Made by a program: the position numbers and the translations under genes. Shown one piece after another: positions 6,665 to 54,323 of a DNA stretch of 64,000 nt (position 1 is its first letter; every line of letters starts with the position of its first letter). The stretch is taken from NCBI GenBank assembly GCA_947184155.2, contig CAMXCT020002668.1:1287714-1351713 (forward strand), in the 5' to 3' direction. This DNA comes from Cladocopium goreaui. Lineage: Eukaryota; Sar; Dinophyceae; Suessiales; Symbiodiniaceae. The notes below the pieces were generated by a model. That model saw nothing but the letters and a program-made list of their open reading frames with translations, had not been told where the DNA came from and did not search any database.

Positions 6665-7921
6665 ATGAAGCACAAAGCTGCGGACGGTCAGGTGACCCAG
6701 GTGTCTGAGAATTTCATCAAATTTGACGTGTCCTTGCCAAGTGGACGGCGCGAAACCGTTGCGGTCTCGCAGTGTGGTACCGTCGCCGACTTGAAAACAG
6801 CAGCGCAAGAGTCTCTGGGGCAACGTTTCTTGAGGCTTGCTGCGCCTGACGGGCACATTTTCGACCCAGCAGACTCTCTTCGACTTTCTGGGCTTCAAGA
6901 TGGAGACAGCCTTACAGCTGTCGCCCAGCAGCCAAAGCTAGCTGCGACAAGGTTTGCCTTTGCTTTGTGGTATATTGGAGCTCACACGGTTGTCACCTGG
7001 GGCAATGAAGCTGCAGGCAGTTACAGCCCCACAGTCCAACAGCAGCTCAGGAATGTCCAGCAGATTTGTGGAACATACGGTGCTTTTGCCGCAATTTTGG
7101 CAGATGGAAATGTAGTGACATGGGGCAGTCCAGACTATGGTGGTGACAGCTCCAGAGTTCAACATCAGCTCAGAAATGTCCAGAAAATTTCTGGCACATA
7201 CCAAGCTTTTGCTGCGATTTTGGCAGATGGAAGCGTGGTCACTTGGGGCAATCCAGACTGCGGTGGTGACAGCTCCAGAGTTCAACAGCAGCTTAACAAT
7301 GTCCTGCAGATTTGTGGCACGTTGCGTGTTTTTTCTGCAATTTTGGCAGATGGAAGCGTAGTGACGTGGGGCTATCCACCCTATGGAGGTGACAGCTCCA
7401 GAGTTCAACAGCAGCTTAACAATGTCCAGCAGATTTGTGGCACGTCCCGGGCTTTTGCTGCAATTTTGGCAAATGGAAGCGTGGTGACGTGGGGCTATCC
7501 AGACTTCGGTGGTGACAGCTCCAGAGTTCAACAGCAGCTCAGGAACGTCCAGCAGATTTGTGGAACATACGGTGCTTTTGCCGCAATTTTGGCAGATGGA
7601 AATGTAGTGACATGGGGCAGTCCAGACTATGGTGGTGACAGCTCCAGAGTTCAACATCAGCTCAGAAATGTCCAGAAAATTTCTGGCACATACCAAGCTT
7701 TTGCTGCGATTTTGGCAGATGGAAATGTGGTCACTTGGGGCAATCCAGACTGCGGTGGTGACAGCTCCAGAGTACAACATCAGCTCAGGAATGTCCAGCA
7801 GATTTCTGGCGCAGGACATGCTTTTGCTGCGATTTTGGCAGATGGAAGCGTGGTGACATGGGGCTGTCCAGACTATGGTGGTGACAGCTCCAGAGTCCAA
7901 CATCAGCTTGACGACATTTAG
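6665..7921 (+). CDS. Ubiquitin-like plus RCC1-like repeat protein
   Basis: A 418-residue uninterrupted frame starting at the first in-frame ATG after an upstream stop. Residues about 20-88 look like a ubiquitin-like beta-grasp domain: the TVADLKTAAQESLG helix, then FDPADSLRLSGLQDGDSL. Residues 109-418 are eight repeats of 41 residues (starts 109, 150, 191, 232, 273, 314, 355, 396, the last partial), each beginning VVTWG and containing GGDSSRVQ and AFAAILADG. This is the RCC1-like propeller family that is abundant in Symbiodiniaceae and often labelled HERC- or UVR8-like. No HECT domain is present, so a ubiquitin-ligase label is not supported. A complete propeller normally has seven blades, which fits seven full repeats. 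The lack of introns contrasts with the exon-poor neighbourhood and could mean a retroposed copy or an intron-poor family. Binding partner unknown. Confidence 0.85.
   Translation: MKHKAADGQVTQVSENFIKFDVSLPSGRRETVAVSQCGTVADLKTAAQESLGQRFLRLAAPDGHIFDPADSLRLSGLQDGDSLTAVAQQPKLAATRFAFALWYIGAHTVVTWGNEAAGSYSPTVQQQLRNVQQICGTYGAFAAILADGNVVTWGSPDYGGDSSRVQHQLRNVQKISGTYQAFAAILADGSVVTWGNPDCGGDSSRVQQQLNNVLQICGTLRVFSAILADGSVVTWGYPPYGGDSSRVQQQLNNVQQICGTSRAFAAILANGSVVTWGYPDFGGDSSRVQQQLRNVQQICGTYGAFAAILADGNVVTWGSPDYGGDSSRVQHQLRNVQKISGTYQAFAAILADGNVVTWGNPDCGGDSSRVQHQLRNVQQISGAGHAFAAILADGSVVTWGCPDYGGDSSRVQHQLDDI
6989..7918 (+). repeat. 123-bp in-frame tandem array within the RCC1-like gene
   Basis: The 41-residue protein repeat corresponds to a 123-bp DNA repeat. 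Units 1-2 (about 7050-7240) and units 5-6 (about 7542-7732) are almost identical at the nucleotide level and lie 492 bp, or four units, apart. Other units are more diverged. This points to a recent duplication of a multi-unit block. Confidence 0.85.
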
Positions 7922-27995: not shown

Positions 27996-28095
27996 NNNNN
28001 NNNNNNNNNNNNNNNNNNNNNNNNNNNNNNNNNNNNNNNNNNNNNNNNNNNNNNNNNNNNNNNNNNNNNNNNNNNNNNNNNNNNNNNNNNNNNNN
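27996..28095. other. Assembly gap (100 N)
   Basis: Exactly 100 undetermined bases, the usual placeholder for a scaffold join of unknown length. It lies between a TA microsatellite and a 10-bp tandem array, both hard to assemble, so the true array is probably longer. Confidence 0.95.
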
Positions 28096-28503
28096 TGGTT
28101 AATAGTGGTTAATAGTGGGTAAGAGTGGTTAATAGTGGTTAGTTAGTGTTAGTAGTGGTTAATAGTGGTTAATAGTGGTTAAATGGTTAATAGTGGTTAA
28201 AGTGGTTAATAGTGTTATAGTGGTTAATAGTGGTTATAGTGGTTAATAGTGGTTAATAGTGGTTAATAGTGGTTAGTAGTGGTTAATAGTGGTTAGTAGT
28301 GGTTAATAGTGGTTAATAGTGGTTAATAGTGGTTAATAGTGGTTAATAGTGGTTAATAGTGGTTAATAGTGGTTAGTAGTGGTTAATAGTGGTTAATAGT
28401 GGTTGATAGTGGTTAATAGTGGTTAGTAGTGGTTAATAGTGGTTAATAGTGGTTAATAGTGGTTAATAGTGGTTAATAGTGGTTAATAGTCAATAGTGGT
28501 TAA
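28096..28503 (+). repeat. 10-bp tandem array (TGGTTAATAG)n
   Basis: About 40 copies of TGGTTAATAG, with TGGTTAGTAG variants and a few indels near the gap. The left edge is cut by the gap. No coding potential. Confidence 0.9.
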
Positions 28504-28511
28504 TGAAATAT

Positions 28512-28633
28512 CTGGTTGGTGGTGACTGGAACATGAATGGATTATGACTTTCCATTCAGGTGGGAATTTCATCATCCCAACTGACGAGTTGTCATGTTTT
28601 TTTTCAGAGGGGTAGGTTGAAACCACCAACCAG
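28512..28633 (+). mobile_element. Family C TIR element C4
   Basis: Left CTGGTTGGTGGTGACTGGAA, right TTGAAACCACCAACCAG. The core GACTTTCCATTCAGGTGGGA and CATCATCCCAACTGACGA are intact. Confidence 0.75.
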
Positions 28634-29132
28634 TAAACCATTGGCAAATCTAGAATCTAGCAGGTTCCGATGGAAGCCATGGTCCATGTGTAGATTATCA
28701 TAGCTATGGACGACATGGTTCATTTAGTTTGATGATGTACCATTGTATAGAAATGGTGATGTTCGATAGTTATGTGAATGTGCCAAAAAATGCCAGAGTG
28801 TAAACCTTCATTATGTTCATTGGGTGAATGGGTGCTTCTTCTTTCTAAACCAGTCATTGGAGAATACAGCAAAGCAGCAGAGAACAAACTTTGTTTGCAG
28901 AATAGAAACTGAACATTTAAGATTGGACATAGCTTGATTTGCTTGATGAAACACATTTGAAGGATATTTACTTGGATATCTAGGGTTGGACCTCTTTTTA
29001 GTCTTCAAACTTGGCTGTTCAACTGTCAACTTACTTTCAATCCTCACCTGTTTTGTTCGCCACCATTCGTTCCACTATTGAATGCTACTGGAAATTGTCA
29101 AGTGGTTGGAATGGGCTAAAACCACGAACCAG

Positions 29133-29282
29133 ACCTGCAGTGTAGTTCGTGGGACACCTGGCCTGGGCGTCCAGGCTGCGACAATGCGGAGCTTCCCGAA
29201 GCATCCTACTGCCTGGGAATGGGCACGGAGAACGGCGTCCGCGTCTTGAAGAACAGGCGCCGGTGGATTTCTGAACTTGAAG
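29133..29282 (+). CDS. Putative Cys-rich coding exon
   Basis: Acceptor gaaccag, then phase 1: LQCSSWDTWPGRPGCDNAEL and PEASYCLGMGTENGVRVLKN, donor CTTGAAG|gtgcac. 150 nt and the most GC-rich exon of this stretch. Phase 1 would accept the phase-1 end of exon 27029-27143. The Cys spacing suggests a disulfide-rich extracellular segment, but no family is recognised. Confidence 0.55.
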
Positions 29283-29529
29283 GTGCACTTCGAAGATGGC
29301 CATTTTTACACGAATATCATGGAATGTCATCTAAACCTTCTAAACCTATCATTTGTTTCATTTGCTTGAAGGTTCATGAGATATTTTCAGCTAATTACAT
29401 AGATGGTGGAGAGCTGCAACTTTAGAAACGTTGGACACCTCGGATTTTCATGAAAACCAAAGTGAGGTAGCTTCCATGCCAAACATGCGATTTCAATATT
29501 CATGAGATTTCATGAGTATAAGCAGGGAT

Positions 29530-29643
29530 ACAGTTACGGCCATTTATCAATTATATAGCCAGTTATAACTGGTTGTAAATGGGATTATACATTCTATAGA
29601 TGGGGTTATAAGTACTTATAACTGGTAAAGGGCCATAACTGTA
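29530..29643 (+). mobile_element. Family E TIR element E2
   Basis: CAGTTACGGCCATTTATC ... AAGGGCCATAACTGTA, with AACTGGTTGTAAATGGGATT and TATAGATGGGGTTATAAGTA inside. It shares a 5' flank of about 35 bp (GAGTATAAGCAGGGAT and upstream) with E1. Confidence 0.7.
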
Positions 29644-29836
29644 GGAAATCACACGAACGGATTATGAACGGGCACCTGATATCACCTGATCAACTCAACT
29701 GTGATATTGACCAACAGCAATGCTTTGCTTTTGGTGTGACGTCGATGAGATATTGAGAAGTCATCGAGTTGATTTGAATTATCTTAAACCAGTTTCTAAG
29801 TTTCTCGCAAAACATCCAGATGCCAAAGGGATTTCT

Positions 29837-30070
29837 ACAGTTATGGCCATTTGTTAGTGATAACTGGTTATAAAGATGTTATAAATGGGATTATACATTC
29901 TATAAATCTGGGTAAATTATAACGACTTCACTGCGACCTCACTGGAATCATGGTTAGTAAGGGGAATCATCCCCAAATGGCCTTAATTCAGGTTAGTGAA
30001 ATATTATAATTTACCCAGATAAATTGGATTTTGTTAGTACTTATAACTGGTATTTCGGGCCATAACTGTG
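29837..30070 (+). mobile_element. Family E element E3 interrupted by an F element
   Basis: The left half (ACAGTTATGGCCATTTGTTA to ATTCTATAAAT) and right half (GTTAGTACTTATAACTGGTA to CCATAACTGT) of family E are separated by a complete family F element. Without the insert the E copy would be about 120 bp. Confidence 0.8.
29908..30018 (+). mobile_element. Family F TIR element F2, nested in E3
   Basis: CTGGGTAAATTATAACGACT ... ATTATAATTTACCCAG, flanked by ATAAAT on both sides, a likely target duplication. It shows that family F was active after this family E copy inserted. Confidence 0.8.
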
Positions 30071-39923: not shown

Positions 39924-40089
39924 TAATATATTTATATATATAATATAATTTACCATATTATATTTTATATATTATAGATTATATTTTATATTATATATTA
40001 TATTTTATATATTATATCTTTTATATGTTATATTATATCTTATATATTAAATATTATATTTTATATATTATATTATATATTTTTTTCAC
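39924..40089. repeat. TATAT/TTATA array flanking the retroelement 3' end
   Basis: Degenerate TATATTATATTTTATATATT repeats run right up to a T7 tract that, on the minus strand, reads as A7 after the element 3' UTR. It is either a pre-existing microsatellite target or the element's own AT-rich tail. Confidence 0.75.
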
Positions 40090-40158: not shown

Positions 40159-43100
40159 TCAGGAAAAAGCATAATCGGCACCAATTTCATCACCATATGA
40201 AGTCATCACCATGTCATGGCACCTATCAAGAAATTCCTTCATCGGGTCTTTGGCCTGAGAAGCGACCGGTGTCTGGTCAAAAGCTTCCATCAGGGCCACA
40301 GCCATGCACCTACAGAGCGCAGGAGGATACTCCTTCAAGGCGGTCGTGCGCCAAACTCCAGTTTCAGTACGCCCTATCGCAACTGAAGTTGGCAGCTCTT
40401 TACAGATCCTACCTTGGTGCAGATGAAAAAGCATACGTGGCAAATTGACAGTGAGTAAGTTGGTCGGTTTGGGAGTCTTAGCTCCTAAAAGACCCTGTGC
40501 AAATCTTACACACTGTACCTGGGGAAAGGCCATCAGAGCTCTCACTAGCGCGGTGCGCCAAATCGATGCCGCCTCCTCCTTGGTCGGCTCCGCCGGGTGC
40601 TCCATGATGGCAAAACCCTCAACCTCGATCAAGGCAATGATGCAAAGGATGGAAAAGAAGAGCAGGTCATTCCCTACACAGAGCTGACGCAGCTCTTTCA
40701 GGGAGACACTGTCCATTCCCCAAAGTTCAAGGATTGTTCTGATGATCCGAGGGCCATGTTTCGGTGCAGGGGTCGCCGCAATGTCAGCCTCCTCATGTCC
40801 AAGCTGCTGGCCCCTGGCTTGAGACCAGGTTTCGCATGGCGGTCCCCCGATGAAGGCGATCACATGTCGCAGCTGGATCGCCCTCCACCAGAATTCACAT
40901 GTGGTAGGACATGTTGCGTCTCCCCATTCTTTGTTGACGATCACGTCCATCGATACAACGTGCAGAATATACTTGTCCTGCTTCTCGGCGAGCAGGTCCA
41001 TGAAAAACTGCACATCCCCTCGGCGTCTGCGACCTGAAAACGCATGTAGGACAACTCGATGTCGCCCGAATTCACGAGGGACTTGGACAACTCGATCAGG
41101 GTTGCGTTCAGTGAAATCCTCTAACAATCTGCACTCTTCCTCCAGAAACTGCAGACTGGGTAGAGGCGCTTCTTGTGTCTGGCTGTACTTCAAAAAGGGC
41201 CATGAAACCGGGTTTCTCAGCTCCAGAAGGACAGCTCGCAATTGGCTCAAGTCATAACCAAAGAAGTCCGCATCCTGCTGTTCAAAGTGGTCCAAGACAT
41301 ACTGGATGGTGCCCGTGAAACGTGTCCAAGACAAGGCAAGGCCCCGCACATGGTCACGGATCCTCGAGGACAATTCTTCCAGGGTGCTGTGCTCTTCCAG
41401 CGCGGCCACAACGAAATCATGTACTCCTTCGTCAATATCCAGGAAATGTCTCTGTAAACCAGACTCCACTTTTGGACCTTGTCCTTGGAGAGGTGGAAGA
41501 AGGCGGTCATGATCTGCAGCACGCTCACAATCTTCACGCGACCCTGCTCCTGGTACTAGTCCACATTGAATACCACAAGAGCGCAGTTGATCTCGACATG
41601 CTGCACTGTAGTACAAATGTGCCTTCATCTTGCGCATGGTGTGATAATGGCGCAGACATGCTGGGCAGGTCGGCTCATCAAAAAGCGGTCTCAGGGTGGA
41701 TGGCTGTCCATGCACCTTGTACATGTGCGCAGCTTCCCCTGCTTTGTTGACACAGTGAAGGCCACATCCCAAGCATCCAAAAGCCTCCGTCTCCACCTCC
41801 TCAATCTCGTGAGACTTCTGCAAGCTTGGTGCCTCAATCAGCATCCTGCGCAAACGTTCCAGGGCGCTCTTGTGCGTCAATCTCACTCTATATTGTCGGG
41901 ATTGTTGAAGAACTGCATGTTGGATTGCTCTCTTGATGAGACGTTTCCAATACCCTGGACTATGGAGAACCAAGTTTCGCCAATATCCAAAGTTTTCTCT
42001 GGGATCAGGTAGCCCGGAGGAGTTGCGCAATTGCATCCACATCCATAAGATATCCTGTTCCAGCAGTCCCATCCATTCAGTGTCTCTGGCTAGCAGAGCC
42101 CAGATGTCAGCTTGTCTCATTTGTACCAGCGTGCAAAAATATCGAAGACGTGCACGACGTAAGAGATCTGTTGGGCATGGCATACGGAGCTGGTCAAGCA
42201 CTTCCTTATCCGAGAGGTGCCATGAAGCTTGCCGTTGCAAGAGTCTCCGGTACAGTTTGAAGATGGAGGCCTGGAAACGCGTCATGGTGCGAGTGTCCAT
42301 GGCAATCCAGGTGTCTGCTCCATACAGAAACTTGCTGAGCACCAGCATCTCGAACAGTTCACAACGTTTTTTGATGTCAATCTTGATGTTTTGGAATACG
42401 ACTTTGCGGTTCTGGTTGAAAGCCTGGTGGGCTATACCTGTACGCCGTTTGATCTCTGCATGTTGGTCACCCGTGTGGTGCAATATACCGCCCAAATGGC
42501 GATAGGCAGAGACCAGTTGTACTTGATGAAGACCATGTTCGCCCAAGACTGGCAAAGTGCCAGAGGAGTGTGGACCATAATAGTCCACCTTCGCCTTTCT
42601 GGACCCCGGTCCACGGAACATCATCATGATCTCTGTTTTTCCTTTGGCCAAGTTCGGTGTCATGCAGTGATATTGACACAGGTCAATGAGCTTGCTCGTG
42701 ACATGTCCTGTCATGGACACCAGGCTAGTGGGCAGGTCAGATTGGAGGCACACCGCCAAATCATCCATCCACGTCGGGCCTAGGAAAGGCGCCCAGAGGC
42801 CATCGTTGCATGCTTGGCCAAACAAAGGAAGGTCTGTTTGCCCTTCGAAGTGGACCAATGCATGGGTCTCCTGCATGTAAGCTTCCAGTTTCTTGAGCAC
42901 ACAGGACCATGCAAAACTGAAGATGAAGTCCGCAAAACAGTCTCCCGGTCGGGTACCTGCACAGGTGCGAACCACGTCACTCTGGTGCTTCAGCCAGAAG
43001 TGGGTTCCAGTGTGTAGTGCCCGTACACATCTTCGGTCCATTTCTCCCATGCCTGCCTGTTCTAAAGCTGGCGTTTCAGCAAGCAATTCCTGGATTTGAT

Positions 43101-46100
43101 GCAATGCATCAGGCGGCATGCGGAGCTTGGTCATAATGTGCGCGACCAGTTCATCGGAAGGACAGCCACCCATCGGAACTTCACGGATGATCCTGTAGAA
43201 TGCTTCAGTCAAATCGAGGTATATGATGCTGGCTGAACGTCCCGCTTGCTTGGCTTGTCGTACAAAGGCTCTAGTTTGGTGCATCGCCAACTGCACAGGG
43301 GTCTTTTGGCGACCTCCTTTTTGTTGTGTCTGGAGAAATTGTTCGTACAGTGGCGCATGCTTCTGCCGAATCGATCTATGAATGGCTTTGCTCAGGTGGT
43401 TCGATACTACAATGGATCTGTAAGACGAACATCGATCGATGGGTCCACGGCCTTTGTAAATCGGTGCAACAATGCCACCCTTCGCAGAGAGATCTTCTTG
43501 TCCATGAAGTGTCAGTTTGACCAGCTGCGGAAACAAAATTTTTGCCACGGAGCTGGGAAAGAAATGACAAAGCTCCCCCGGGATTCCATCAGGTCCACAT
43601 GCTTTGCCTCGTGGGACCCTTCTCAATGCTAACTCCAGTTCAGTCAATGAGGGAAGGGCGTCAAAGTGCTCCAAGAGCGAAGATTGGGCAAATTGTTGGA
43701 GCTCTGTAATCCATTGCTGGCGAAGTCGTGGCATGGACATTCTCTCACCTGCTTCCATGTCTTGAAAATAGCGTACCCATACTGCAAGTGCATCATTGGG
43801 CAGGCTACAAGGTGTGCTCTGCTCATCCGACACAATCGGCAGATTGGCTCTCTTCTGCTTCTTTGGATTTGTAGGTCCTGTAAAGCGACGTAGCGTTCTC
43901 AAGACTGATGATGCCGGCATGGATGGGTCAATGTTGTGCAAGACCTCATTGAGCTCCGCATGCTTGGCCTTAATCAGTTTGTCTTTGAGTCTTTTGCAAA
44001 CGCTCTTATACAGGACATATGTGTGAAAATTGTAGCAAAGAATCGTAGTTTCGTGATTGAAGAAAAGATCAGCTTGGGCATCTTCTCGTCGCATCTTCCA
44101 TGCTCTGAAACACCTCGTCAAGAGCTGGAACTTGAGATGATGCCTCTGGTCTTTAAGCTTCTTTCGATGTAGAATCTTCTCCTCACGAATGCGCCAGATT
44201 TCATCTGAAACATAGGCCTTCTTGCTGTGGGAGGTTGATTCTTGTGTCTTCTCAAGCTCTTGCCGAAGATAGTACATGGCATGGTTGGCTTGACTCTCAA
44301 TGTCAGTCTCCCATGGCTGATGTACAAAATCTTGAATGGCCCGATGGAGCTCCCAAGTTGGGCTCTTTGGGGCTGAAAGTCTTTTCCTGGACTTCGATTT
44401 CTTCGGTTGCCATATCGATCCAGACCATTGAAGTTGTACTGCAATCAGAGAATGATCTTCATGAGCATTTCCAAGGTCGAAGTCAGCTACCACGCAGGAA
44501 TGTGTGCAACGATCGGTCCATTCCCTAGGAATCGCAATGTGGTCAATGCAGTGTTTCTGAGTGCCTGAAAGATTCATCCACGTACCATTCTCACCCGTGT
44601 GAGCCTTACCAGTTGCAGGTAGGTGAAGATCAAGATGATGTAGTAGGCGACGAAAATCAGGGGTATTCACTGATGATGAAAACCCATCACTGCACACAAT
44701 GCGATCATCCGCAGGTCCGGGCGCTGCATTGGCATCTCCCGCAATGAAAATCACATCTCCATCGTAGTGCTGGTCGATAATCTCAATGGTTTCATTCCAC
44801 CAAGCAGTTCGAGATTGAGCCGCATGTCCACTGTGTGGGGCATGAAATGCAAGTAGCCAAAACGACCAATCGCCGGTATCACATCGAAGAAGAAGTCTTC
44901 TGGGATCTTGATGCACAATCACAAAATGTTGAGGCTGAAACGAAGAACACTGGCCCTTGTGCAAGTGTGCATAGGGTGCTTGTAAGTCAATCCAGATCTC
45001 GATACCCAGATGCCCATCTTGGTGACCAGAACAGAATCTCAATATACCTCCATTTTGCGAGAATCCCTGTTCAGACCTGGTCTCCTGCAGTGCAAGGCAA
45101 TTGAATCCATAATATCGCATCTGGGATTGCAAGTACTGCAATTTCCCCGCGTGTCCAATGGGGCCCTTGTACAGAGACTGGACATTTGCGGAGCCAATGC
45201 TAAAACCAAATTGTGCTGTTTGGTGTTGCCAATGATGGGGTGTCCAATGGATTTCTTCCTGTTGCCATGCTGGTAGAAGAGGAGCTGAGACATCTAGCCC
45301 TCCATCACTCCAGGCCGGCAAGCCAAAGCGGCTTCCAAAGAATACCCATAGGTGGTCAAACTTCCTTTTCCAAATGCCCAGATCAAGTTGTTGGCGCTTG
45401 TGATTGAAGGACTTCCTAGCCTCCATCCCAGCTGCTGTATCGGCTATTTCATTGAATATCTCCCCCGCATGCGCTCTGGTGTGAACAACTTGAAGCGCAC
45501 CTGGTTCGAGGGCTGCATCTAGAGTCTGAAAGAGCGCCCGGAGAAGAAAATAGGACTCATCCGGACACGCCGTGCCTAGAGAACCGTCTGCTTGTCCCCC
45601 TCCAGTTGCAGAATCAGTACAAAAGGTGGTCGGGATGCCATGATTCACGGCGACACGCCACATCGCCGCGGCAATGAGTCCAGTTCTTTCGGCAACATCT
45701 GACCCGATGCGCTGGGCTCCTAGAAAGGCAGAGCCTGTTGGTTCATAAGTCACCGGTTGCGTGGTCCAGCCAAGTAGGTGTTTGGTTGATGTGTCCTGAT
45801 CAACATAGCTCTCACCCACAACAACCATAGCCCACGTGTCGGGATGCCCGAGAGCGTCGGCATGTTGTGGGGCCAATCTGCGCATTGCCGGTATTGATGA
45901 ACCGTCAGTGAAAATGAGTAGTCGATCATATTGATTGAGTTCCTCCACATTCTTGAACGGCCGAATGTCAAGTTCCTGTGCTTGGGCTTGACAAGCCTCT
46001 GGCAAGTGCAATCCAGTCAGGTCAGTGCACAGTACTCCTTCTGTTGATGCAAAGAGCTCCTTGAAGTCTTCTACTGCAAAGGCTGTGCGCAGTTGACATT

Positions 46101-46221
46101 TGGAGTCAAGTGGAGGTATTGCGTCCAGGTTGAAGAGCGGCCTGTTCGTCCTGGAGTGTGGGCCTCGCTTCGGCCACTCACTTTGATGCGTGTCCGGCCC
46201 TGTCGTGGTGGCACTTGAGGT
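40159..46221 (-). CDS. Retroelement ORF3: RNase H - endonuclease - RT - Zn finger - C5-MTase-like
   Basis: The open frame runs 2,020 codons from after a stop at 46222-46224. It has no ATG near its start and overlaps the end of ORF2 by about 150 nt in the -1 frame. Numbering from the TTG codon at 46011 (1,950 residues): RNase H-like about 30-200 (D36 in FTDGSS, E108, D133 in CTDSATGG, D191); AP-like endonuclease/phosphatase fold about 270-520 (SANVQSL, LQETR, GDANAAPG with D426, IDHI, EDHSLI); reverse transcriptase about 790-1120 (YLDLTEAF with D933, GTRPGDCFAD, WMDDLAV with Asp1083-1084); Cys/His zinc-finger-like motifs about 1410-1475; methyltransferase-like about 1650-1830 (HAFSGRRRRGD, GGPPCETWS with Cys1726, EHP with E1804). 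Placing RNase H before the endonuclease is unusual, since it normally follows the RT. No inactivating change is seen in the motifs listed. EHP replaces the usual ENV of C5-methyltransferases, so activity is not assured. Confidence 0.9.
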   Translation of the reverse strand, partial: TSSATTTGPDTHQSEWPKRGPHSRTNRPLFNLDAIPPLDSKCQLRTAFAVEDFKELFASTEGVLCTDLTGLHLPEACQAQAQELDIRPFKNVEELNQYDRLLIFTDGSSIPAMRRLAPQHADALGHPDTWAMVVVGESYVDQDTSTKHLLGWTTQPVTYEPTGSAFLGAQRIGSDVAERTGLIAAAMWRVAVNHGIPTTFCTDSATGGGQADGSLGTACPDESYFLLRALFQTLDAALEPGALQVVHTRAHAGEIFNEIADTAAGMEARKSFNHKRQQLDLGIWKRKFDHLWVFFGSRFGLPAWSDGGLDVSAPLLPAWQQEEIHWTPHHWQHQTAQFGFSIGSANVQSLYKGPIGHAGKLQYLQSQMRYYGFNCLALQETRSEQGFSQNGGILRFCSGHQDGHLGIEIWIDLQAPYAHLHKGQCSSFQPQHFVIVHQDPRRLLLRCDTGDWSFWLLAFHAPHSGHAAQSRTAWWNETIEIIDQHYDGDVIFIAGDANAAPGPADDRIVCSDGFSSSVNTPDFRRLLHHLDLHLPATGKAHTGENGTWMNLSGTQKHCIDHIAIPREWTDRCTHSCVVADFDLGNAHEDHSLIAVQLQWSGSIWQPKKSKSRKRLSAPKSPTWELHRAIQDFVHQPWETDIESQANHAMYYLRQELEKTQESTSHSKKAYVSDEIWRIREEKILHRKKLKDQRHHLKFQLLTRCFRAWKMRREDAQADLFFNHETTILCYNFHTYVLYKSVCKRLKDKLIKAKHAELNEVLHNIDPSMPASSVLRTLRRFTGPTNPKKQKRANLPIVSDEQSTPCSLPNDALAVWVRYFQDMEAGERMSMPRLRQQWITELQQFAQSSLLEHFDALPSLTELELALRRVPRGKACGPDGIPGELCHFFPSSVAKILFPQLVKLTLHGQEDLSAKGGIVAPIYKGRGPIDRCSSYRSIVVSNHLSKAIHRSIRQKHAPLYEQFLQTQQKGGRQKTPVQLAMHQTRAFVRQAKQAGRSASIIYLDLTEAFYRIIREVPMGGCPSDELVAHIMTKLRMPPDALHQIQELLAETPALEQAGMGEMDRRCVRALHTGTHFWLKHQSDVVRTCAGTRPGDCFADFIFSFAWSCVLKKLEAYMQETHALVHFEGQTDLPLFGQACNDGLWAPFLGPTWMDDLAVCLQSDLPTSLVSMTGHVTSKLIDLCQYHCMTPNLAKGKTEIMMMFRGPGSRKAKVDYYGPHSSGTLPVLGEHGLHQVQLVSAYRHLGGILHHTGDQHAEIKRRTGIAHQAFNQNRKVVFQNIKIDIKKRCELFEMLVLSKFLYGADTWIAMDTRTMTRFQASIFKLYRRLLQRQASWHLSDKEVLDQLRMPCPTDLLRRARLRYFCTLVQMRQADIWALLARDTEWMGLLEQDILWMWMQLRNSSGLPDPRENFGYWRNLVLHSPGYWKRLIKRAIQHAVLQQSRQYRVRLTHKSALERLRRMLIEAPSLQKSHEIEEVETEAFGCLGCGLHCVNKAGEAAHMYKVHGQPSTLRPLFDEPTCPACLRHYHTMRKMKAHLYYSAACRDQLRSCGIQCGLVPGAGSREDCERAADHDRLLPPLQGQGPKVESGLQRHFLDIDEGVHDFVVAALEEHSTLEELSSRIRDHVRGLALSWTRFTGTIQYVLDHFEQQDADFFGYDLSQLRAVLLELRNPVSWPFLKYSQTQEAPLPSLQFLEEECRLLEDFTERNPDRVVQVPREFGRHRVVLHAFSGRRRRGDVQFFMDLLAEKQDKYILHVVSMDVIVNKEWGDATCPTTCEFWWRAIQLRHVIAFIGGPPCETWSQARGQQLGHEEADIAATPAPKHGPRIIRTILELWGMDSVSLKELRQLCVGNDLLFFSILCIIALIEVEGFAIMEHPAEPTKEEAASIWRTALVRALMAFPQVQCVRFAQGLLGAKTPKPTNLLTVNLPRMLFHLHQGRICKELPTSVAIGRTETGVWRTTALKEYPPALCRCMAVALMEAFDQTPVASQAKDPMKEFLDRCHDMVMTSYGDEIGADYAFS

Positions 46222-48701
46222 TCACGATGATGAAAGATAACTTTTGTCCAATGCGATGTCAAACTTTCAAGCTGTAGAATGACCGCTCTTTGGTAACCAA
46301 CGCTATAAAGCAGGACCATGAGCTGTGTCTCGTCAAGCATCGTGGTGGAGCTGTGGGCAAAGCACCCTTCTGCATCGCCAAGATCATCATGACAGAAGAG
46401 ATAGTGGTGCCAAGAATGATCAAACTTTTCATCACTGCTTTCCTGGTCAATGCACAGCATCACATTGTGCTCATGACATGGGAAAACACGGCATTGATAT
46501 CCCCACGCAATCAGTTCAGTGCGTACTTGGTCAGCAGTGCCAGGCAATGGTATTTCCAAAGGATTGGGAAGACCTCGGCTGGCCGTGCAGTCAAGCAGTC
46601 TCACTGCAGTAGTCGCTGGAATGAGATCATCAAGGTAGATGGTCTGCTTCAGGCTGCCGATCTGTAATAGGCTGCTTTCCTCGTCTTCATCCCAGACAGA
46701 GCTACCCAGAGGGTCATGTGCTTCTGGATGGAGATGTGGTAGACGTTCAATGATGATCACAAAGCCTACACCATTTCGGTTGCGCAATGCTACTCTACCT
46801 GCGATTTGAAGGTCGCCATGCCATACCATGCACTGTAGAGAGGATAGCTCAGGGTAGCAATCATCCGCTATGCCAGCAAAACCAATGACTTGTGGTTTCG
46901 TGACTTGTCTAGGTGCAAAGCGTGCTGTATGTCGGACAGGTTGTTCATTTGGACCTGTCCTGATGATGGTGAACAAATTGGCAACGCCGTCATGTGGAAG
47001 TCTTTGCACAACGATAACCTGGAGCCTTCTCGTTCTTTGTGTAGCCGTTGCGGGTGGCGTAGGTCGCACAACATGCAAATCAATGGGCCACATTGGATCA
47101 AGAACATCATTCCAGGCGCCAGCAAAAGCCTGAAACCACGCTACAAAATTTTGCTGCAGGGCGACTGATCTGGGCCTGTCGCAACTGAGATAGCGAGGCA
47201 TGTCCAAATACCATGAGTCCACATGCAGGATAGGTTCTTCACCACCTTGTACTGCTTCTTCTCCAGTAAGATGTGCCAACCAATGCATGTAGAGCTCTTG
47301 GATAACCGCTGGCTCTGCCTCAATGCCTGGGAGAAAGCCCAGTGCCGTTGTTTGGATGGGATCTGGGTCTCCACATCTGTATGGCGGTTCTTCAGGCAGA
47401 CGTTCGTTGGGCTCCTCGGCATAAAGAAAGTCAGGCACATCCAAAGCTGGTACTTGTACCCTATGGATTTGAAGAAAAAGAGCACCATCACCATCCTCTT
47501 GCCTTTGAAATCTTCGATTCCGTGGCACATGTGGTGGTCCTACTATTTCCTCATGCCATCCAAGACGATATAGTGTGTGCCTCATGGAGATGTCCTCAGC
47601 GTTCATGCCCTGGTGAAAAGCTGTTGCCAGGCATCGCGTGTCGATGTGGTCAATGTTGGGTCCCCCAGGAGGAACTGCAATCCTCACGTAGTCCCCGTCA
47701 CGAAGGTGAACTCGTGGAGTTTTGAAGGAGATCAACTCGTCATTGACCCAAATCAAGCACCTGTTGTCTTCATGCCTGCAGAAAGGCTGGAGACCCAGCC
47801 CTCGGAGTATTTGCTCTCGGCTGATAGCATCAGGTATCAGCCGCGCCTTGCGAACAACTTCAGGCATGACAAATAGGACTGCTGAATGGAACTCTACATC
47901 AAGAAGTACGAAGCGCTCTGTAGACCCTGTAGGCAGGTCACCCCTTCGATTCGCAATGACCACGCCAGAGTGAGCTCTATCTACATCTTGTGGTGGCGTC
48001 TCCACAATGTGCATGTTGAAGAGATCCTCAGGGCCAATGCGAAGCGCTCTGGCTACCTTCTGATGCATGTCCATGTAGTCATTCCAGTTGAGCCACAAAT
48101 TGCCTGGTCCTCCTTCTAGAGTGAATACCAGTGTTGTATACCAATCGTCAGGGCCAACCGCTTCAGGTTCTGAGCTAGTTGAATGAGCCGGTGACGAAAC
48201 TGTGGAAACTGGAGAGATATCATCAAAGTCTCTCGCTATGTCACGATTGTTCATGATAGCATCAGTTGGCCCCTCACAGGGCAATTCAATGTTGGCTCCC
48301 CCTGCCGTGACATGAGCAGCAAGAAGCGAAAAGTCATCCGTCTCATCGATGCGTTCAGCGGACGTGCATGAAGTAGCAAGATGATTCGGAGAGGGATGTT
48401 GAGGGCAAAGGACGTACGCTTGCTGGTGTGGAACTCCAACACTGTGCGTCCAATGTACCATGTCCAAGTCTTCCTCTGCACCCACATAGAGGTCAACTCT
48501 GGAGTGAAACTGTACCTTGAGCTTCAAAAGTTTCTTTGCACACTCCACAAGGGTGTAGTTCGAAGGCATGTCTCCTGTCCCAACTTCGTGAGCCAAATCG
48601 ACAGCATCTATACTAGCCTCCCAAGGAGTGACAAAGTCATCATCATCCACAAAACTATGGTTCCAGATAAGGGTCTGATCATGGAAACATAGTGGTCTCA
48701 T
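46071..48701 (-). CDS. Retroelement ORF2, function unknown
   Basis: 876 codons from an ATG 26 nt downstream of the ORF1 stop to TAG. The same frame is open further upstream (to about 49973), but that part overlaps ORF1 and has artefactual composition (Gly/Arg/Ser-rich), so it is unlikely to be expressed. The product is acidic to neutral with many Asp/Trp/Pro and no motif I can name. A segment ILRGLGLQPFC...LRDGDYVRIAVPP reads like a small beta-grasp or ubiquitin-like fold, which is only an impression. Its frame is -1 relative to ORF1. Translation could be by frameshift at 48743-48749 or by reinitiation at this ATG. Confidence 0.75.
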   Translation of the reverse strand: MRPLCFHDQTLIWNHSFVDDDDFVTPWEASIDAVDLAHEVGTGDMPSNYTLVECAKKLLKLKVQFHSRVDLYVGAEEDLDMVHWTHSVGVPHQQAYVLCPQHPSPNHLATSCTSAERIDETDDFSLLAAHVTAGGANIELPCEGPTDAIMNNRDIARDFDDISPVSTVSSPAHSTSSEPEAVGPDDWYTTLVFTLEGGPGNLWLNWNDYMDMHQKVARALRIGPEDLFNMHIVETPPQDVDRAHSGVVIANRRGDLPTGSTERFVLLDVEFHSAVLFVMPEVVRKARLIPDAISREQILRGLGLQPFCRHEDNRCLIWVNDELISFKTPRVHLRDGDYVRIAVPPGGPNIDHIDTRCLATAFHQGMNAEDISMRHTLYRLGWHEEIVGPPHVPRNRRFQRQEDGDGALFLQIHRVQVPALDVPDFLYAEEPNERLPEEPPYRCGDPDPIQTTALGFLPGIEAEPAVIQELYMHWLAHLTGEEAVQGGEEPILHVDSWYLDMPRYLSCDRPRSVALQQNFVAWFQAFAGAWNDVLDPMWPIDLHVVRPTPPATATQRTRRLQVIVVQRLPHDGVANLFTIIRTGPNEQPVRHTARFAPRQVTKPQVIGFAGIADDCYPELSSLQCMVWHGDLQIAGRVALRNRNGVGFVIIIERLPHLHPEAHDPLGSSVWDEDEESSLLQIGSLKQTIYLDDLIPATTAVRLLDCTASRGLPNPLEIPLPGTADQVRTELIAWGYQCRVFPCHEHNVMLCIDQESSDEKFDHSWHHYLFCHDDLGDAEGCFAHSSTTMLDETQLMVLLYSVGYQRAVILQLESLTSHWTKVIFHHREPQVPPRQGRTRIKVSGRSEAHTPGRTGRSSTWTQYLHLTPNVNCAQPLQ

Positions 48702-48727
48702 CGGCCTAGGGCAAACCTCTGCATAGT

Positions 48728-49705
48728 CTATTTGCCCGGCCCTGGGAAAGGCGAGAGCGCACGCGATCCCCGCCCACCATCTTCTGTTCTTGGCTTTTTG
48801 GCCGCCGGAACTTCTTCTGATGCTTCGTCGACTGGATGGACGTTCAATTGCTTCAAGTTGTCCACCACAGTGTGTATACTTTTCTGTATAGCTTCTGCGG
48901 TGTCCTCCTTCATGGTGTCGTCCTCCAGCTCTCCATCCGAGATGACTTCCGTGCCCAAGACATCTGCGTCCATCTTGGAATGGATCTCTTTCACTTCGTC
49001 GAGGTGACTTCTTGCCTCCTGAAGGCAATCTCGTGCAGCATTGACCTCCTTGTCCAAAGCTGCATCCTTCTTTGCGAAGTCCTCTGCAAAAGACTGCCAT
49101 CTCTTGATGCTCTCTTCCACATAGTTCTGCCAAGACTTGTGCAGCTTCCTTCGAGCCGCCATCGCTGCCTTGAACTTGTCCCTGGCTTGATCGACCCTCC
49201 GAACTGCCTGGTGCATACTCTTTGATGTAACTGGCTTGTTCGTGGTCTCCGCGATGATCTGCTGAATCTCCTGTGGTGAGAGCGGTTGCTCGTTGGTCTG
49301 CAACTTTTGGACCAGCGTTTGCAATTGTTGTGCAGCAGCAGCATTCTCTGCGTTCCCCGTCGCTGACGCCGTCGAGGGTGTGATGGGCTGCTGCTTGGTA
49401 CTCCATGGTGGATCCAGAGGTGGTACCAAATCCTCCTCTTTGGCTTTGCGTCGACTGGCTCGCGGCGTAGATCCTCTTCTGATCTTGCGTGGCGATTTGG
49501 ACGCCTTTCTTTCTGATGACCATGCCCGGTCGCCTGCGTCCCAGCTTGAATAAGTCCAATCCTCCTTCTTGGACTTGGCGCCATGGACGTAGGATGTATC
49601 CAAGCATTGATGCCACATGGTGTCGCACTTTCCACATCTCAGAGCGTTCATCTTGTTGAGTCTCATACAGTAACCACATCTCCATGGTTCTTTGTACTCC
49701 GTCAT
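48728..49705 (-). CDS. Retroelement ORF1: zinc-finger, coiled-coil (gag-like) protein
   Basis: 325 residues from ATG at 49705. Residues 8-27 are W-x-C-x2-C-x10-C-x2-C (Cys 10, 13, 24, 27), the spacing of a RanBP2-type zinc finger. Residues about 50-90 are Ser/Lys/Arg-rich and could bind nucleic acid. About 165-265 is Lys/Glu/Gln/Ala-rich and likely coiled coil (AALDKEVNAARDCLQEARSH). An acidic stretch (about 265-285) and a basic tail with KKPR follow. It occupies the position of ORF1/gag in a LINE-like element and probably packages element RNA, which is inferred from position. It ends SPFPGPGK then TAG. Confidence 0.8.
   Translation of the reverse strand: MTEYKEPWRCGYCMRLNKMNALRCGKCDTMWHQCLDTSYVHGAKSKKEDWTYSSWDAGDRAWSSERKASKSPRKIRRGSTPRASRRKAKEEDLVPPLDPPWSTKQQPITPSTASATGNAENAAAAQQLQTLVQKLQTNEQPLSPQEIQQIIAETTNKPVTSKSMHQAVRRVDQARDKFKAAMAARRKLHKSWQNYVEESIKRWQSFAEDFAKKDAALDKEVNAARDCLQEARSHLDEVKEIHSKMDADVLGTEVISDGELEDDTMKEDTAEAIQKSIHTVVDNLKQLNVHPVDEASEEVPAAKKPRTEDGGRGSRALSPFPGPGK
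48743..48749 (-). promoter_or_regulatory. Candidate -1 frameshift heptamer T TTC CCA at the ORF1 end
   Basis: On the minus strand the ORF1 codons CCT TTC CCA contain U UUC CCA, which fits X XXY YYZ in the zero frame, 12 nt before the ORF1 stop. Slipping back one base would read UUU CCC and enter the ORF2 frame (FPRAGQIDYAEV). The Y position is C, unlike the usual A or U, so efficiency is doubtful. Confidence 0.3.
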
Positions 49706-50275
49706 CTCGACTGTGACGTAGTCCAGGAAGCTCTCGTCCTTGGAGTGATGGTTCTTGAGAATTGCAAATATTGAAGCAAGACGTTGACGGCTTAGCCTGT
49801 AGAGCCCTTTCCTGTGGCAATGCCACCAAAACCTGGCTAAAGCCCTTTGCCGCCTTGTTCTTCTCCTCTTTGATGGAGTAATGATTCACAAAATCCCCAA
49901 AGAAGACCAACGTAGAGATGACAAAAAGGTGAAAGAAGACAATGCCCATGAAAAAGCCAGGTCCCCTTGGCAATTCAAATAGACGAAGTTCACCTTCAGA
50001 GAAAAGTGCAAATAAAGGCCCCCAGGCGGTTTAACGTGGCTGGGACCACGGCAGTGCAAAAGGTGTTGCTTGAGTGGCCTAGGCTCAAGCAGAGCACAAG
50101 GATTGTCGTGACCAAATACCCAGGGCTGCGCCAGTTCAGGTAGATAGCCACGTCAAAAACCCAAAAGGCCAGAGCAGGGGACTGCGATATGGCCCGGGGG
50201 CAGGTTGGAACAATGCCCCCTAAGATTGAGGATGGACGTGTGCGTGTGGGCGCCCTTGCTGTCCAGCCAAAACCT
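49706..50275 (-). promoter_or_regulatory. Retroelement 5' UTR / probable promoter region
   Basis: About 570 nt of GC-richer sequence upstream of the ORF1 ATG, bounded on the outside by TA repeats. It contains an inverted repeat, CTTGAG...CTCAAG (50071-50091). LINE-like elements normally carry an internal promoter here, but no specific motif is recognised. Confidence 0.4.
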
Positions 50276-50640
50276 TATATTATATATTATATATATATAT
50301 ATTATATTATATTATATATATATTATATTATATATATATATATATTATATTATATATATATTATATGTTATATATATATATATTATATGTTATATATATA
50401 TTATATGTTATATATATATATATATTATATATATATATCATATAATATAATCTATATCATCACATCTGATAATATGATATATTATAATATAATTTGGTAT
50501 AATATAATATGATATTATATTATACTATATTATATTATATTATATTATACTACAATATATTATATTATATTATATTTTATTATATTATATTTATATGATG
50601 CATAAACGCTGTCTGAAGGATACTAACATCATATGATATA
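50276..50640. repeat. TATATTATA array flanking the retroelement 5' end
   Basis: About 360 bp of TATATTATATATA-type units, later ATAATATGATAT. With the similar array at 39924-40089 it brackets the element, suggesting insertion into one AT microsatellite. Confidence 0.8.
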
Positions 50641-52664: not shown

Positions 52665-53834
52665 ACAGAGTTAAGGAGTTAGGGCGAACCAATCATATTG
52701 AAGGGCATGCTTTGATTCAATGGATCTTGTTGGTGTTGTGTCAACAGCAAGAGTCTATTTGCATGCCACAATGCAGATGTGGATTTCCGTTCGTTTGGGC
52801 TGGCTTTGACAAGCTCTGACGAATTCCTTCCGCGCAGCAATATGGTGCAAAGTGTGCATGTTGCGTTTCAAAAAGAACATGTCAGGTGGTCAAGAAATGT
52901 CAATACCGTCAAGAGAGGTCAGAAAATGTACAGAGTTAGGGAGTTAGGGCCAACCAATCATATTGAAGGGCATGCTTTGATTCAATGGATCTTGTTGGTG
53001 TTGTGTCAACAGCAAGAGTCTATTTGCATGCCAGGATGCAGATGTGGATTTCCGTTCGTTTGGGCTGGCTTTGACAAGCTCTGACGAATTCCTTCCGCGC
53101 AGCAATATGGTGCAAAGTGTGCATGTTGCGTTTCAAAAAGAACATGTCAGGTGGTCAAGAAATGTCAATACCGTCAAGAGAGGTCAGAAAATGTACAGAG
53201 TTAGGGAGTTAGGGCCAACCAATCATATTGAAGGGCATGCTTTGATTCAATGGATCTTGCTGGTGTTGTGTCAACAGCAAGAATCTATTTGCATGCCACA
53301 ATGCAGATGTGGATTTCCGTTCGTTTGGGCTGGCTTTGACAAGCTCTGACGAATTCCTTCCGCGCAGCAATATGGTGCAAAGTGTGCATGTTGCGTTTCA
53401 AAAAGAACATGTCAGGTGGTCAAGAAATGTCAATACCGTCAAGAGAGGTCAGAAGATGTACAGAGTTAGGGAGTTAGGGCCAACCAATCATATTGAAGGG
53501 CATGCTTTGATTCAATGGATCTTGTTGGTGTTGTGTCAACAGCAAGAGTCTGTTTGCATGCCAGAATGCAGATGTGGATTTCCGTTCGTTTGGGCTGGCT
53601 TTGACAAACTCTGACGAATTCCTTCCGCGCAGCAATATGGTGCAAAGTGTGCATGTTGCGTTTCAAAAAGAACATGTCAGGTGGTCAAGAAATGTCAATA
53701 CCGTCAAGAGAGGTCAGAAGATGTACAGAGTTAGGGAGTTAGGGCCAACCAATCATATTGAAGGGCATGCTTTGATTCAATGGATCTTGTTGGTGTTGTG
53801 TCAACAGCAAGAGTCTGTTTGCATGCCAGAACGC
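52665..53834 (+). repeat. 265-bp tandem array, about 4.4 copies
   Basis: Units start at 52665, 52930, 53195, 53460 and 53725 with ACAGAGTTAGGGAGTTAGGG (first copy variant). Copies differ at only a few positions, for example CCACAATGC, CCAGGATGC, CCAGAATGC. A 101-codon frame in each copy lacks an ATG start and crosses unit borders, so no protein is called. Function unknown. Confidence 0.9.
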
Positions 53835-54323
53835 AGCAGCTTTTTCTGTAGAGTCGCAGGTTGGTTGAATTTCAGGAAAGAGTGTTTTTTTTTTAAACAG
53901 TACGTTCCATCCTAGTCAGATGCTGGTCTATGTTTTGTTCCTTCCTATTCTAAAGTGTGCTGTTTTGTTCCCTTTGGTTTGTTGTTGTTTTTTATTCCTT
54001 TATTTGCAGTGCTGCAGTACAGGTATATTTTATTGTAAATATTGTCGATCTTTCTTTGCTTGTTGTCCTGCTGTTGGGGTGTTTGGTTGATGACAATTGT
54101 TCGGTTGATGACAATTGTTCTCACTTCTCAATGGTGAAATCACCATATTTCATGGTGAAATCCCAATGTTTGGTACTTAAATCGGCATCTTTCAATATCT
54201 TTCATGTTCAATGGATTTTAATGGTCAAACCATGTTGAATCCCTGTTTTTCATGGTAAAATCACCATTTCTCACCAGTGTCTGATGGTCAAATCATGTTA
54301 GATCTGTATGTTTCACCGTCCAG

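Follow-up and report, generated by a model that had tools for sequence, protein, structure and literature searches.

In dinoflagellates, DNA methyltransferases (DNMTs) carried by retrotransposons have been described in SymbioLINE-Dnmt, a long interspersed nuclear element (LINE, a retrotransposon without long terminal repeats) in which the DNMT lies mostly in an open reading frame (ORF) upstream of that of the reverse transcriptase (RT), in SymbioDIRS-Dnmt3, in which it lies inside the pol ORF, and in KnitGypsy-Dnmt3 (de Mendoza 2018, PMC5890265; like the other papers cited here, a source on which we draw in part). According to the same source, these families were found with PF00145, CG methylation extends over most of the Symbiodinium genome, and two of the SymbioDIRS DNMTs proved able to methylate CG in yeast. 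PMC12344493 and PMC9998398 continue the work on these families, with a PF00145 screen in the latter as well, and Gypsy and DIRS elements are listed with methylases among their accessory domains (PMC6338049). Here we analyze a LINE-type element of Cladocopium goreaui, located within 64,000 nucleotides of contig CAMXCT020002668.1 (the window), whose ORF3 ends in a cytosine-C5-methyltransferase-like domain fused behind the RT.

An earlier note on this DNA had taken the known dinoflagellate DNMTs as precedent. The precedent exists, but its architecture differs from that of the window element. Both this element and SymbioLINE-Dnmt are dinoflagellate LINE retrotransposons with a C5-methyltransferase. 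However, the SymbioLINE DNMT is PF00145-positive and mostly upstream of the RT ORF, whereas the window domain follows the RT in the same frame, scores below the PF00145 cut-off, and is preceded by an ORF1 and an ORF2 without a Pfam match above cut-off; the element thus falls outside SymbioLINE-Dnmt. SymbioDIRS-Dnmt3 and KnitGypsy-Dnmt3 resemble it in joining methyltransferase and RT in one polyprotein but are Dnmt3-type and belong to DIRS or Gypsy elements. Canonical C5-methyltransferases (M.HhaI, Dcm, DNMT1/3/5) share the fold and the catalytic Cys and Glu but, unlike the window domain, keep the FxGxG loop, ENV, RxR, GN, and a recognition domain. No description of a LINE RT followed by a C-terminal methyltransferase turned up in the open-licence literature (titles and abstract openings, with supplements and subscription papers outside reach). 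The arrangement is a new form of retrotransposon-borne cytosine methyltransferase. Overall, our best explanation, at a probability of about 0.6, is a LINE polyprotein that ends in a compact phage-type C5-methyltransferase, with methylation in cis via tethering as its most likely mechanism.

Layout of the ORF3 polyprotein and its C-terminal domain

The minus strand of 40159..46221 is a stop-free run of 2,020 codons, whose translation we call P0001; on the plus strand, the one frame translated contained stops throughout. A poorly conserved linker separates the zinc-finger-like motifs of P0001 from the C-terminal domain. The parts of the polyprotein are as follows, in their order from the N terminus.

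45412..45924, minus strand: RNase H-like domain (P0001 ~95-275), four acidic residues kept in 63-66/68 rows
44452..45192, minus strand: EEP (Exo_endo_phos) endonuclease (P0001 344-590; PF03372)
42517..43629, minus strand: RT core with motif C WMDD (P0001 ~865-1235), catalytic Asp kept in 66-68/68
41596..41775, minus strand: two zinc-finger-like motifs, C2H2 and C2HC, found by eye (P0001 1483-1542), putative metal ligands kept in 64-67/68
40261..41070, minus strand: C-terminal C5-methyltransferase-like domain (P0001 ~1718-1987)

The Pfam family Exo_endo_phos (PF03372) passed its cut-off at residues 344-575 (E=2.4e-7), and RVT_1 (E=0.028) and RNase H (PF00075, E=0.06) stayed under theirs. In the relative P0101, RNase H passed (E=4.5e-6, residues 50-200), with the endonuclease downstream at 281-504. 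P0001 carries the hallmark of LINEs, an EEP endonuclease and an RT in one ORF, and the catalytic residues of both are kept in 66-68/68 rows. The RNase H-like domain (45412-45924, minus strand) precedes the endonuclease, RT, zinc fingers, and methyltransferase; in RNase H-bearing LINEs, RNase H is mostly found downstream of the RT.

A motif scan of P0001 recovered the three motifs on which the earlier note had based its claim, HAFSGRRRRGD (residue 1726), GGPPCETWS (1792), and EHP (1874), in the order it had given, and they share one open frame with the endonuclease and RT, as it had stated. Its candidate residues Cys1726 and Glu1804 were numbered correctly from a TTG at 46011, 70 codons into P0001; they correspond to P0001 residues 1796 and 1874. 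We then aligned the window domain with 96 of the 120 listed domain relatives (alignment A1; 97 rows, all different), whose identity to the window spans 65% to 36%. The motifs, with the usual names of canonical C5-methyltransferase motifs, are conserved in A1 as follows.

41014..41046, minus strand: motif I-like cofactor loop HAFSGRRRRGD; G81, R82, G86, and D87 in 97/97, R83 and R84 in 96/97
40945..40947, minus strand: Asp D110, which closes the second strand (motif II position), 97/97
40822..40848, minus strand: motif IV GGPPCETWS with the candidate catalytic Cys at 40834-40836, 97/97; the sole PF00145-aligned part (E=0.28)
40594..40602, minus strand: motif VI variant EHP; Glu in 96/97, His in 97/97
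40462..40470, minus strand: motif VIII-like KPT, aligned with the KPT of phage proteins; Lys in 97/97
40312..40338, minus strand: motif X-like LKEYPPALC, ahead of the last long helix (318-333 in the model); L, K, E, and Y in 97/97

The Cys of the motif IV Pro-Cys nucleophile that marks the C5-cytosine methyltransferase superfamily is invariant. The motif VI Glu is replaced in a single row (Lys in P0182), but the Asn of the canonical ENV is His in every row.

Querying with the C-terminal 331 residues of P0001 (1690-2020) brought up 208 proteins at E<=1e-3; among the 120 listed, all carried GPPC, followed by EHP in 119 (P0043 being without it). The domain alone found 216 proteins. The few names attached to relatives are Cladocopium goreaui and those of 'Skav' gene models, Skav being, as we take it, Symbiodinium kawagutii. 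Of 237 RT relatives, 120 were listed, and 101 of these carry the C-terminal domain, downstream of the RT in all 101 and ending <=40 residues from the protein end in 89. The remaining 19 all end <=330 residues past the RT match, and reaching through the domain needs ~530 (a median gap of 254 plus 276 model positions); they may be truncated or genuinely tail-less.

In 67 relatives longer than 1,850 aa, identity to the window had medians of 46.7% in the tail, 45.8% in the RT (66/67 covered in both cases), 52.9% in the zinc fingers, 41.6% in the endonuclease, and 29.8% in the linker, figures that favor the tail, as these relatives were found via their tails. RT and tail distances correlated (rho 0.592 over 63/68 rows) beyond all of 300 permutations (maximum 0.159).

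Predicted fold and kinship with small phage methylases

The structural model of the domain was confident, and among the VIA-align matches listed (best 50), all 50 PDB structures were C5-methyltransferases; the unrelated fold that, according to the earlier note, would have spoken against its claim was thus not what the prediction returned. In a viral fold library, the best match was an unnamed 210-aa protein (E=8.3e-7), accompanied by many phage cytosine methyltransferases and, from E ~1e-3, by viral polymerases.

Profile comparisons connected the domain to a group of small phage 'C5 methylases' from Lactococcus phage P087 (gp15), Streptococcus Javan phages, and Enterococcus phage Pumpjack. We compared A1 with an alignment of P087 gp15 and eight phage relatives (A2; 9 proteins) and with a canonical set of seven enzymes, one of them E. 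coli Dcm (cut) and the other six encoded by phages, a prophage, and an archaeal virus. This set showed FxGxG, ENV, RxR, GN, and the recognition domain, with the cut Dcm row as an exception for GN. With E-values that are pairwise and without database correction, A1 matched A2 over 133 columns, from motif IV to beyond KPT (probability 89, E=2.2e-6), and A2 matched the canonical set (probability 95, E=1.9e-8). PF00145 also matched 9/9 members of A2 at E<=1 (0.022 for P087 gp15 itself). Against PF00145, the window domain reached 11 bits, versus a cut-off of 22; weak hints came from 25/97 A1 members at E<=1 (best 0.004), from NCBIfam dcm in 2/97 (best 0.09), and from two PHROGs 'DNA methyltransferase' families (E=0.17-0.18).

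The phage proteins and the window domain have in common PPCE[ST][WF]S, an E-x-P motif VI, K[PR]T at the motif VIII position, a long stretch between motifs IV and VI, and no space for a recognition domain. Canonical enzymes have motifs IV and VI 40-50 residues apart, versus 73-86 for the phage class and 67-80 (median 72) for the dinoflagellate domain; motifs VIII and X are 130-188 (7/8 rows), 35-38 (8/9 rows), and 48-50 residues apart, respectively, the dinoflagellate spacings being counted on alignment columns and the landmarks differing slightly between classes. Profile homology and spacing thus both point to the phage class, with spacings that are close but not identical. The phage methylases differ in being free-standing (212-266 aa as read, some ending at a locus edge), with an LFDSGNGS-like motif I and ENP; the window domain is fused behind the RT and has RRRxGD and EHP. 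The earlier note had left activity open because of the EHP variant and the missing target-recognition landmarks. These doubts were real, but both features are shared in kind by the phage subfamily with its ENP and short tail. As the motif spacing is nearer to the phage class, EHP and the lack of a recognition domain seem characteristic of that class and not marks of decay.

Several results weigh against our best explanation. Foldseek TM-scores were low (0.18-0.30 on the query), and amidases made up 6/50 listed Foldseek rows. The window domain met no curated model at threshold in Pfam, NCBIfam, or PHROGs, matched no PDB sequence, and in a PDB profile search returned only two unrelated designed coiled coils (E 2.9 and 6.9). 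Compared directly with the canonical set, A1 aligned over only 20 columns around motif IV (probability 14.6). The glycine loop for S-adenosylmethionine (SAM), FxGxG, is lacking, since [FY][SA]G is retained but is followed by RRRxGD, and the motif VI Asn, motif VIII RxR, and motif X GN are absent, with KPT and LKEYPP in place of the latter two. Tail distances correlate at 0.54-0.59 with those of the other domains, versus 0.67-0.72 among those domains. The literature gave no demonstrated activity or target base for the A2 phage proteins. Lastly, the SymbioLINE DNMT gave no DNA methylation in yeast, nor did that of KnitGypsy, results that the authors call inconclusive (PMC5890265).

Searches for a viral or prokaryotic donor, with a reach limited to close or moderately distant relatives, returned 211 pattern matches in viral_contigs and 11 in genome_contigs, none confirmed by alignment, and a single tblastn match against phages (E=4). 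No precomputed Pfam domain was present in the 120 listed of the 216 domain relatives.

Probable activity, rival explanations, and implications

At its core, the earlier note claimed that the RT frame is fused to a C5-methyltransferase-like domain. This claim is supported by the structural model, the profile homology via phage proteins, and the conserved catalytic residues, and we regard the C5-methyltransferase fold and homology as nearly certain. The note's further suggestion, that the domain could methylate new element copies or the host genome, is an inference. From its conservation, the domain is likely a catalytically active methyltransferase, presumably with SAM as its cofactor. We envisage a dinoflagellate LINE-type element whose polyprotein for copying, with its RNase H, EEP, RT, and zinc fingers, would close with a compact C5-pyrimidine methyltransferase like the small ones of phages, which has no target-recognition domain of its own. 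Because it is fused to the endonuclease and RT, this tail would be tethered at the insertion site, where it could flip a cytosine and methylate it by means of Cys1796 and Glu1874 (P0001 numbering). The substrate in cis might be newly copied element DNA, the target, or element RNA, with positioning supplied by the polyprotein and its zinc fingers instead of a recognition domain. That the domain acts in cis on the element's own nucleic acid is a reasonable guess, which we offer tentatively.

The conserved motifs could be chance likenesses in an unrelated fold, given that the PPC stretch alone scores in Pfam (E=0.28) and that amidases are found among the Foldseek rows, but the confident model, the uniform C5-methyltransferase neighbors, and the chain of profile matches make this very improbable. 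We rejected chance on the basis of the fold model and the family (208 proteins, with GPPC in 120/120 listed). Alternatively, the fold may be genuine but catalytically idle, with DNMT3L as a precedent, and serve as a nucleic-acid-binding or base-flipping module that holds template or target during reverse transcription. The loss of the Gly-rich SAM loop, RxR, and GN and the lack of space for a recognition domain are consistent with such a module, and conserved basic residues (R82, R176, and K269 in 97/97 A1 rows, R154 in 96/97) could grip the phosphate backbone. However, an idle domain should lose its catalytic residues, whereas Cys (97/97), Glu (96/97), and D110 (97/97) are kept while identity falls from 65% to 36%, so we consider idleness rather unlikely.

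LINE proteins bind their own RNA, and an active enzyme could, like DNMT2, have RNA as its substrate, either that of the element or tRNA. RNA is indeed raised as a possible substrate of LINE DNMTs in de Mendoza 2018, where the LINE enzyme gave no DNA methylation (PMC5890265); the closest profile match that we found, however, is with phage proteins that carry a DNA methylase annotation, and we judge an RNA substrate unlikely. We consider it improbable that the enzyme is active but uses a different chemistry or cofactor. In such an enzyme, the RRRxGD loop would not bind SAM, or another base would be modified, for example adenine by an amino-methyltransferase with an xPPx motif. In favor of this, R82 and D87 are invariant at the glycine positions of SAM enzymes, orphan methyltransferases of Lactococcus 936 phages make N6-methyladenine (PMC4190342), a homologue of a replication-region 936-phage methyltransferase is said to be encoded in 41/90 such phages (PMC4759559), and L003 (phage PhiE1127), used in our phage set, belongs to the 936 phages. 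Yet the listed structural neighbors are C5 enzymes in 50/50 cases and the phage relatives match PF00145. In addition, the ends of the 936-phage enzyme M.Phi145II, taken from the primers printed in PMC4190342, occur in 0/9 A2 proteins, so it seems to be a different protein.

A compact C5-methyltransferase acting in cis remains our preferred reading. We would put it at somewhat below even odds that the RT of a large LINE family in dinoflagellates is followed by an active C5-methyltransferase of phage type, as a further, independent, and overlooked capture of a cytosine methyltransferase by dinoflagellate retrotransposons, missed by PF00145. If so, methylation in these algae, directed at the element or even spanning the genome, might originate from this enzyme, with a bearing on the CG methylation of the Symbiodinium genome (PMC5890265). 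Two DNMT surveys that cover dinoflagellates (PMC5890265 and PMC9998398) probably omit this family, because both start from PF00145, even though 101/120 listed RT relatives carry the domain. An active domain would put a methyltransferase in physical linkage with a self-copying element's own endonuclease and RT, and self-marking of copies, one of the two roles that the earlier note had suggested, would become testable. An inactive one would be a methyltransferase fold turned into a part of retrotransposition, with its catalytic Cys and Glu oddly retained.

Upstream ORFs and other features of the window

Two further ORFs and a frame change lie upstream of the ORF3 domains.

46071..48758, minus strand: ORF2, 895 aa; a partly confident model suggests ubiquitin-like (beta-grasp) domains
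48728..49705, minus strand: ORF1, 325 aa, an open frame with a CxxC...CxxC finger and a probable coiled coil, by eye
46182..46190 (near 46187), minus strand: reading-frame change at the ORF2/ORF3 junction of this copy

ORF2 had zero Pfam matches, and no Pfam family passed its cut-off in ORF1. Within 48728-49973 (minus strand), ORF1 is overlapped by a long open stretch in another frame, which is also matched by predicted proteins of some relatives. ORF2 and ORF3 form a single continuous frame in 10/11 hand-picked relatives, one of which reaches 3,275 residues; the eleventh, P0101, begins past the frame-change point, without the ORF2 part, and is uninformative there. ORF3 is intact, as the earlier note had read it; its separation from ORF2 was seen in this copy and in none of the 10 informative relatives. 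The frame change may be a mutation or an assembly error; programmed frameshifting is less likely. Since both ends of the element adjoin (TA)n tracts (39926-40081 and 50275-50596), its ends and any target-site duplication are unreadable.

A CpG footprint of methylation was not seen, as the element showed no extra depletion (CpG observed/expected 0.64 versus 0.55-0.60 in three other stretches). Compared with the same stretches, TpG (1.41 versus 1.21-1.26) and CpA (1.36 versus 1.26-1.32) are somewhat higher in the element, which we leave unexplained. A search for other element fragments within the window gave a single match, which we disregarded (E=0.092), and no RNA family reached its gathering threshold there.

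Elsewhere in the window, the plus strand carries a 418-aa ORF (6665-7921) built on 123-nt tandem repeats, with an N-terminal stretch that we take to be ubiquitin-like and 'GxVVTWG' repeats that presumably resemble RCC1. A 10-nt repeat, TGGTTAATAG, is present in ~40 copies at 28096-28490, in a region of strong GC skew (0.262 in 28001-30000), and a tandem repeat with a 265-nt unit occupies 52665-53836 (4.4 copies, 98% matches).

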